From: an uncultured Methylophaga sp.
GTDB taxonomy: Bacteria > Pseudomonadota > Gammaproteobacteria > Nitrosococcales > Methylophagaceae
DNA length: 64,000 nt
Reading direction: 5' to 3'
Assembly: GCF_947259025.1 (NCBI RefSeq)
Contig: NZ_CAMYKO010000002.1
Location: 1 to 64,000, forward strand
This document shows, in pieces, positions 9,163-52,148 of the stretch. Position numbers and translations under genes: made by a program. The notes beneath the pieces are model-generated. The model did not search any database. It saw nothing but the letters and a program-made list of their open reading frames with translations, and was not told where the DNA came from. Numbering within the stretch: the stretch's first letter is position 1; each line of letters begins with the position of its first letter.

Positions 9163-9560
9163 TTTTCGCCTTTATGGCGAGTCAGGGATTTGCTCGCCCA
9201 AATCCCTAACAACCCTAGGGCGCCCCACTGTGCTGGCCTGACGGCTCCACTGCGTTGCTCGGTTTATCTGGGGATTGGCCGAAACTCGCTAGCGCTCAGA
9301 CACTGCCCAATCCTTATCCAGATAAACCTGCGCTACTTGTCAGCACACAGGGGGTAAGGGACTACTCTTCTTCCCGTTTATTGTCGCCAAAAATTGAGTT
9401 TGGTTGATGGATTAAGTGGTCGAGTGTTTGAGCGAAGCGAGTTTTCGGCCACGCCATCAACCAAACTCAATTTTTGGAATCAAGGCAATAGCGGGTGCCG
9501 TTTTGTTTGGTTCGTTTATTTTGGGCATGCAAAATAAATGAACTCGCCATTTAGGCGAAA
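9163..9560. repeat. Composite intergenic repeat A (398 bp, terminal inverted repeats)
   Basis: Both ends carry a roughly 20-bp imperfect inverted repeat: left TTTCGCCTTTATGGCGAGTC, right (reverse complement) TTTCGCCTAAATGGCGAGTT. The interior, read on the minus strand, has the same block order as element B at 51619-52148: a block with CATTTATTTTGCATGCCC, an AACCAAACAAAA block, a hairpin around an AAAACTCGC motif, and a roughly 185-bp 3' block about 90 percent identical to B by eye. Three stems are visible: 9184-9207, 9261-9328 and the 24-bp hairpin at 9387-9477. No transposase or sensible protein is encoded. It looks like a MITE-like or structured-RNA element. Confidence 0.8.
9387..9477. repeat. 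Perfect 24-bp inverted repeat inside repeat A
   Basis: Arms 9387-9410 and 9454-9477 are exact reverse complements over 24 bp; the 43-nt loop contains a second, imperfect stem (GTGGTCGAG with TTCGGCCAC) around TGAGCGAAGCGAGTTTT. This is the longest perfect hairpin I noticed in the window. Confidence 0.9.
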
Positions 9561-51618: not shown

Positions 51619-52148
51619 TTTCGCCTGAAAGTCGAGTTCATTTATTTTGCATGCCCACAAATTCATTGGTAATGAATTTGGACGCCGCGGGCGCCCGCAG
51701 GGTGAGTGACAGGGAAGTCACGAATCAAATTAAACTAACCAAACAAAAGGGCAGCCCACTGCTTGCCCTTCGGGTCCCCTGTGCTTCTCAATCATTTTGT
51801 AACACGACGAAAACTCGCTACGCTCAGACACTCGTCATGTTTGATCCAAACTGATTTGCGATGCTCGGCTGCGCACAGGGCGGTGACACCCTCACCCCAG
51901 CCCTCTCCCATCAAGGGAGAGGGTGACGAGAACAGGATTGGCGGCGAACACCAAGTATCCCCTTTTGTGCTGACGAGTAGCGCAGGCTTATCTGGATAAG
52001 GATTGGGCAGTGTTTGAGCGTTAGCGAGTTTTGGCCAATCCCCAGATAAGCCGAGCAACGCAGTGGAGCCGCAGGCCAGCACAATGGGGTGCCCTAGGGT
52101 TGTTAGGGAAATGGGCAAGCATTTCCCTGACTCGCCATTAAGGCGAAA
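51619..52148. repeat. Composite intergenic repeat B (530 bp, inverted relative to A)
   Basis: It has the same ends as repeat A: TTTCGCCTGAAAGTCGAGTT at the left and, read inward from the right, TTTCGCCTTAATGGCGAGTC. Blocks shared with A in the same order are the CGAGTTCATTTATTTTGCATGCCC block near 51632-51656, AACCAAACAAAA, a hairpin with AAAACTCGC at 51805-51839 and the roughly 185-bp 3' block at 51963-52148. B has extra material, including a CCCTCTCCC/GGGAGAGGG hairpin. Stop-free frames here are not convincing genes. Confidence 0.8.
51902..51924. repeat. CCCTCTCCC/GGGAGAGGG hairpin, second repeat family inside B
   Basis: Perfect 9-bp stem with ATCAA loop, preceded by CCCTCACCCCAG. This is a REP-like intergenic repeat seen in many gammaproteobacteria from memory. 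It is absent from repeat A, so it was probably inserted into B. Confidence 0.75.

Follow-up and report, generated by a model that had tools for sequence, protein, structure and literature searches.

Integron attC sites recombine as folded single strands in which the end boxes, R'' and R' (consensus RYYYAAC / GTTRRRY), are kept and the middle varies. REPs are 20-40 bp long with a GTAG or CGTC tag according to PMC3733652, and an HUH enzyme processes them in the form of folded ssDNA (PMC8266576 and PMC3733652). An earlier note on the present window, a stretch of 64,000 nucleotides from an uncultured Methylophaga sp., had reported two distant copies of a composite element, and both were found at the positions given there: A (9164-9560) and B (51619-52148). 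The reported sharing of internal blocks in inverted orientation was confirmed, with 91% identity at A positions 2-192 (E 1.8e-71) and 90% identity at A positions 357-398. Both copies lie between ORFs, and the adjoining ORFs match no transposase family, in agreement with the description of the copies as intergenic and without a transposase. The end arms of A (9164-9182 vs. 9542-9560) were 89% complementary, as expected of the proposed terminal inverted repeats (TIRs), but conservation of the flanks indicated that these are not classical TIRs and correspond to the 3' termini of two oppositely oriented modules. Judged from their sequence, A and B are head-to-head pairs, each composed of two ~190-nt modules on opposite strands, and belong to one gene-less element family.

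Most module boundaries of A and B were checked computationally, and the remainder were set by eye. The left module of A (9164-9355, minus strand) is of the M1 type with a hairpin, a pseudoknot, and a terminal hairpin, and its 3' end forms the left "TIR"; it was delimited by flank conservation and its boundaries were checked. Its apical loop GTGTCTGAGCGCTAGCGAGTTT (9282-9303, minus strand) carries a GNNA-type cap, and its predicted H-type pseudoknot with a G-rich first loop (9181-9222, minus strand; coordinates by eye) corresponds to helices 6 and 7 of the covariation structure. The right module of A (9372-9560, plus strand), for which 3' end conservation was observed and boundaries were checked, contains a long hairpin, a pseudoknot, and a terminal hairpin, and its 3' end forms the right "TIR." Its apical loop GTGTTTGAGCGAAGCGAGTTTT (9424-9445, plus strand) is an exact match, and its H-type pseudoknot (9496-9543, plus strand; coordinates by eye), supported by the pseudoknot scan and by triplex covariation, has a T-rich first loop, the predicted third strand. 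When folded as ssDNA, both modules of A were far below shuffled sequences (z -5.72, left; z -8.49, right).

The left module of B (51619-51881, minus strand; upper boundary by eye) is of the M2 type and was identified by searches, flank conservation, and the boundary check; its apical loop GTGTCTGAGCGTAGCGAGTTTT (51810-51831, minus strand) is an exact match. It additionally holds a 70-bp insert, element D (51658-51727, plus strand), placed at its pseudoknot between GCATGCCCA and AATTAAAC by a partial match of the D query, the boundaries, and comparable junctions. The right module of B (51958-52148, plus strand) is of the M1 type, with checked boundaries, and was counted in the covariation test as row L003 of the M1 alignment; it has an apical loop GTGTTTGAGCGTTAGCGAGTTTT with a GTTA cap (52010-52032, plus strand) and an H-type pseudoknot predicted from the covariation structure (52090-52131, plus strand; coordinates by eye). 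The spacer between the modules of B contains a further palindrome, CACCCTCACCCCAGCCCTCTCCC...GGGAGAGGGTG (window 51888-51928), which we take to be a very common proteobacterial intergenic repeat.

At the 3' end of the M1 type, the conserved signal extended through TCGCCnnnnGGCGAAA, with 1.35-1.64 bits in the last five columns (54 distinct 3' flanks), and then dropped to ≤0.3 bits except for two later columns at 0.57 and 0.40. At the 5' end, a T preceded CCCC (1.62 bits), and the upstream columns were all ≤0.65 (27 distinct 5' flanks); the 54 and 27 flanks are not all independent because some represent orthologous loci. In 71 flanks of the other module type, the end was either a hairpin like that of the M1 type or GCCCnGCGGCAGC. 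Modules were also found singly, tail-to-tail (in genomes G016 and G017), and as tandem repeats of pairs, and the single module was therefore taken as the unit. None of six open frames across modules matched Pfam or NCBIfam at E≤0.01. Among 36 head-to-head pairs with distinct flanks, a target duplication of ≥3 bp was present in one compared to 1.4 expected by shuffling, that is, none beyond chance. A classical MITE, the deletion derivative of a DDE transposon with TIRs whose transposase has been lost from the host genome, would be intergenic and gene-less as these copies are, and their paired ends resemble TIRs. This explanation was already weak on the target duplications, tail-to-tail and single modules exist as well, and a MITE has no need of a covarying internal structure; we regard it as highly improbable.

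The prediction for each module is a single-strand fold with three parts: a long hairpin with GTGTYTGAGCGNAGCGAGTTTT as its cap loop, then an H-type pseudoknot, and last a small hairpin at the 3' end. This structure is well supported. The arms of the long hairpin change freely yet remain complementary. The named structure (47 pairs including the pseudoknot) was applied to an alignment of 33 M1 modules, out of 42 distinct ones identified; the rows are related. In it, 93.0% of the cells were paired, both-sided changes occurred in 30 of the 47 pairs (169 such cells), and none of 500 shuffles reached any of the five measures. When the partners were slid by 1-3 columns, at most 16 pairs demonstrated a both-sided change, in a control that favors the named structure, which was taken from one alignment row. 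The median arm score of 179 distinct loop instances was 18, compared to 0 when one arm was that of another copy, and the cut of 16 was reached in only 117 of the 179. Stem mismatches on the loop-forward strand were one-sided (G.T 136 vs. A.C 35; purine-purine 307 vs. pyrimidine-pyrimidine 63), and this strand was therefore taken as the folding strand.

The core of the cap loop was GC-GNA-GC in 187 and GC-GNNA-GC in 13 of 204 instances; the closing pair was G-C in 186, C-G in 13, and a non-pair in 5 of the 204, and 12 of the 13 four-base loops were not GNRA. According to PMC4686876, DNA mini-hairpins are extraordinarily stable when a GNA or GNNA loop is combined with at least two G-C pairs, and because the module loops are of this kind, the cap leans to DNA. 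Our interpretation leans toward a folded form of ssDNA rather than RNA, against which it counts that the G.U-type asymmetry and the 3' pseudoknot would suit RNA too. No Rfam match reached the gathering score in the whole 64-kb window. Below that score, the long hairpin of A matched eukaryotic miRNA-precursor models (best MIR6297, 38 bits, E 1.7e-5, gathering score 114), and eight further weak matches were found in seven loci, including SIB_RNA (E 0.71), which may overlap a second hairpin in L101; all of them were taken for chance similarity to hairpins. In the module sequence, T-runs were visible after GC-rich stems.

In pseudoknots with a T-rich first loop, parallel-register covariation links that loop to the A-rich strand of stem 2, as expected if the loop forms the third strand of a triple helix. 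The pyrimidine triplex rules are C+.G-C and G.T-A. Among 56 distinct combinations with interrupted tracts, the loop base opposite the interruption of the A-tract was C over G in 30, G over T in 22, and G over G in 4; run lengths after the interruption agreed in 50, and a Watson-Crick register fitted 1 of the 56. The base rule of the triplex was thus broken by 4 and the run-length rule by 6 of the 56 pseudoknots. After collapse to 24 different numeric combinations, 18 agreed, a value equaled by none of 100,000 permutations. A broader triplex test on 59 combinations, which include a few chance pseudoknots from outside the family, gave a mean fraction of 0.812 versus 0.703, with 0.744 as the highest of 500 shuffles. 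The triplex tests were controlled by shuffles; the reversed-sequence control of the pseudoknot scan was uninformative because reversal retains pairing. Both kinds of interruption were present in Methylophaga and Thermodesulfovibrionia records. With the G-rich first loops of the M1 type, symmetry is too high for a third strand to be distinguished from another Watson-Crick pairing, and the triplex claim therefore rests on the T-rich type. The motif TTTTGCATGCCC ... AACCAAACAAAA, remembered in the earlier note, proved to be the module pseudoknot (stem 2 and the third-strand loop, on the other strand), and its recurrence in other lineages was borne out.

The pattern of covariation bears on two further explanations. 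Correction of imperfect palindromes by template switching, a known process for quasi-palindromes, would yield covarying arms and keep them complementary as a fold without function. It accounts neither for a loop shared by several phyla nor for covariation of the pseudoknot stem 1 strands (helix 6), which lie within other stems, and it is largely disfavored by the parallel-register covariation of the third strand, which it does not produce either; it appears hardly credible here. Alternatively, the modules may be a structured ncRNA family, perhaps a SINE-like retroposon, in which the 3' triple-helix pseudoknot would protect the module RNA or bind a reverse transcriptase and the copy would be re-inserted. 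The covariation with G.U tolerated on one strand is consistent with this, and triple-helix pseudoknots are known in RNA, for example in telomerase RNA. The GNA or GNNA cap loops, 12 of 13 four-base loops being other than GNRA, and the lack of an Rfam match at the gathering score argue against it, and we consider a module RNA unlikely, if still a serious contender.

Nine loci were found with the A and B queries in the host genome (2.70 Mb), on C1, C2, C3, C4, and C8. B matched 36 of the 58 genomes searched (host included) at E≤0.001, comprising, besides the host, 22 of 23 congeners, 9 of 11 members of the family outside the genus, 2 of 6 members of the order outside the family, and 2 of 17 members of the class outside the order. 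The nine loci and 36 genomes indicate that A and B are more than two chance-related stretches, and shared ends and further members were found. An exact scan for GTGTYTGAGCGNAGCGAGTTTT yielded at least 111 stretches, with about 0.2 expected by chance by our own arithmetic. The contexts of 34 loop loci and two viral ones were read, and most showed a hairpin whose arms were unrelated to the others, from records with the titles Dysgonomonas, Parabacteroides, Tenacibaculum, Saprospiraceae, Cellulosilyticum, Desulfobacula, Thermodesulfovibrionia, Thiodiazotropha, Lysobacterales, and others; loop identity in this cross-phylum set is partly by construction because the set was selected by exact loop match. 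Clear arms were missing at the viral loop loci and a few others. The two viral-contig stretches, which had the same flanks and no visible complementary arms, were treated as chance.

Dysgonomonas sp. 25, a record not marked as a MAG, contained four copies with a hairpin and a pseudoknot, and their tails end in GCGCGGCAG, as do some Methylophaga tails. The Desulfobacula copies resembled one long hairpin, and the pseudoknot is not universal among loop carriers. The loop was patchy: in a sample of 299 genomes from across the phylum, 3 (host included) carried it with one mismatch allowed. No match was found in plasmids, searched with A only, or in phages, searched with B only, and none of the titles and abstract openings listed from the open-access literature described the module family. 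Two genomes of another gammaproteobacterial genus (G192 and G228; L327-L345) contained 19 and 13 simple hairpins with a loop variant ending in GAGTTCT and conserved asymmetric bulges, in which no pseudoknot was seen.

Orthologous loci were compared between relatives. Of the 17 relatives fetched for the A locus, 10 were read; module sequence was present in 3 (G013, G006, and G016) and absent in 7. Downstream of lysS, it was present in 4 of 11 loci read, one of them with a tail piece only. The xerC-polA gap contained modules in 13 of 17 loci printed, most of which were chosen because of a module close to a xer match, with gene names assigned partly by eye. G007 and G022 were compared at three module-bearing stretches, with flank identities of 94.9 to 98.8%; two of the three had been exchanged whole, and no clean filled/empty pair for a whole module was found in this comparison. 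If the modules were ordinary intergenic regulators, either bidirectional terminators or mRNA stabilizers spread via gene exchange at hot spots, their frequent location between convergent genes such as xerC and polA and the T-runs after GC-rich stems would be explained. For a terminator, however, an invariant loop and a covarying third strand are both unnecessary, and many orthologous gaps hold no module (at the A locus, those of 7 of 10 relatives), which makes this improbable.

Other insertions and repeats were observed at the module loci. In G007, a 395-aa transposase gene (L322:10100-11410), IS481-like by eye, has been inserted into a module and separates its hairpin from its pseudoknot, and an accessory block between modules (L320:7900-13540), by eye an AraC-type regulator and a phosphonate/phosphite transport operon, was absent from G022 there. 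In the xerC-polA gap (L284, L293, L294, and L302), the repeats AACCACAGAGGCACAGAGGGCAC and ATCCGCAGATTACGCAGAT formed inverted pairs around modules. Short hairpin repeats, GTCATTCCCGCG..CGGGAATCC and TGTCATTGCGAGCATAGCGAAGCAATCC, which resemble CGTC-tagged REPs, stood at sites that hold modules in other species, in L240 and L241 (downstream of lysS) and in L303 (the A locus of G003).

Element D, 70 bp in B, represents a second gene-less element. A 69-base D query matched 20 of 23 genomes of the genus sample, with 63 places among the matches listed. Copies were kept if they covered the query from 1-3 to 66-69 and had 45 bases of flank; shorter matches, for example in G009, were dropped and are unplaced. 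Of the 44 distinct full-length copies, 28 came from 28 of the 30 loci that the D query brought in, and the others from loci fetched for modules; repeated spread of D via recombination between modules would make the number of independent insertions lower. On reading, D was within module sequence in 44 of the 44 full-length copies examined, at loops or loop edges, and an uninterrupted counterpart across the junction was found for 42 of 44 (weakest, 76-80% identity). By eye, the junctions were in the apical loop in 15 copies in one orientation and 13 in the other, at the pseudoknot in 12, in internal loops in 2, and in hybrids without a counterpart in 2; the automatic labels were cruder (11, 13, 8, and 12 "other"). 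CA or GA preceded D in 42 of 44, and no duplication past one ambiguous base was found in the 44 copies. The insertion of D in both orientations is a further point against a module RNA.

No match to Y1_Tnp (PF01797) was found in the host genome, and a RAYT/Y1 transposase was rejected as the present mover on this basis. Nine of 24 congeneric genomes (host included) were without Y1_Tnp at E≤0.001, all nine with module matches; in G004, Y1 matches were present and a module match was absent. After clustering of 539 frames within 2.5 kb of modules, no recurring mover gene was recognized among the 14 largest clusters; by eye, the largest of them consisted of frames across modules, and the others were taken as ordinary chromosomal genes or could not be named. 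Integron cassettes were considered because IntI (TIGR02249) matches over the cut-off adjoin lysS, the locus where B lies in the host genome, in G006 (C1:926847-928207; L243) and G019 (C12:274753-276365; L240). The host's own IntI match over the cut-off is on C5:533464-534411, and its nine module loci are on C1, C2, C3, C4, and C8.

From these data we infer both mobility and a mover. In the explanation that we favor, on balance and with moderate confidence, the module is a non-autonomous element dispersed via a folded single strand, probably ssDNA, by a putative enzyme. It would be exposed as a single strand during replication or DNA transfer, and the folded module would be cut and joined by this enzyme; HUH-like chemistry would fit because the modules are without target duplication. 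The loop and the pseudoknot would serve as the recognition surface, and two modules back to back would form an A/B-type unit, as two REPs form a REPIN. We favor dispersal of a folded strand because of the fold, the covariation of the arms and the third strand, the strand-asymmetric mismatches, the GNA/GNNA caps, the sharp ends, the lack of target duplication in 36 pairs, the locus-by-locus presence and absence, and the location of D inside modules in 44 of 44 copies. The original suggestion of a non-autonomous mobile element or a structured RNA family holds in outline, given the sharp ends, the presence that varies between species at the same locus, the covarying structure, and the lack of an Rfam match at the gathering score; it is modified in that the unit is the single ~190-nt module, with A and B as pairs, and in that the cap loops lean to ssDNA over RNA.

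A bolder version, which we put forward tentatively, is that these are widespread gene-less ssDNA elements whose folded "key" for a putative widespread enzyme would be made up of a hairpin with a GNA cap and a DNA pseudoknot containing a true third strand, and that the parasite D would insert at exposed loops, recording the fold as ssDNA in living cells. If true, a natural triple helix in a dispersed bacterial element would have been found from covariation alone, and D would be a natural record of open loops. The hairpin cap common to several phyla, without a known protein partner, could be used as bait for finding that partner. The spread of extragenic palindromes without a transposase, an old question, would become directly testable.

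Several known systems resemble the module in part. Its pseudoknot is like the telomerase type in being H-type and in having a first loop rich in T/U that is placed over an A-rich stem 2 strand, but the module is a dispersed bacterial repeat without a demonstrated link to a reverse transcriptase. ERIC and bcr1 are likewise dispersed and gene-less with conserved secondary structure; they are described from restricted lineages and with other sequences. Elements derived from IS200/IS605 share subterminal hairpins, the lack of target duplication, and the single-strand route, but no tnpA-like or recurring gene was recognized beside the modules, and we know of no covarying pseudoknot or cross-phylum loop in such elements. 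As for a fixed short target at the module end, only the T before the 5' end was conserved (1.62 bits). REPs, REPINs, and BIMEs, according to PMC8266576 and PMC3733652, are extragenic, gene-less, palindromic, and often in head-to-head or tail-to-tail pairs, as the modules are, whereas the module is ~190 nt long with a pseudoknot, compared to the tagged 20-40 bp of a REP, and the host genome is without a Y1_Tnp match. GTAG was present in an internal loop of the M1 type and, by eye, not at the corresponding place in the M2 type. With attC sites, the module shares the predicted folded single strand, and an IntI match in the host genome exceeds the cut-off. By eye, GTTAGGG is present in the M1 pseudoknot and breaks GTTRRRY, and, in contrast to attC sites, the modules keep the loop constant, vary in their arms, and are dispersed.
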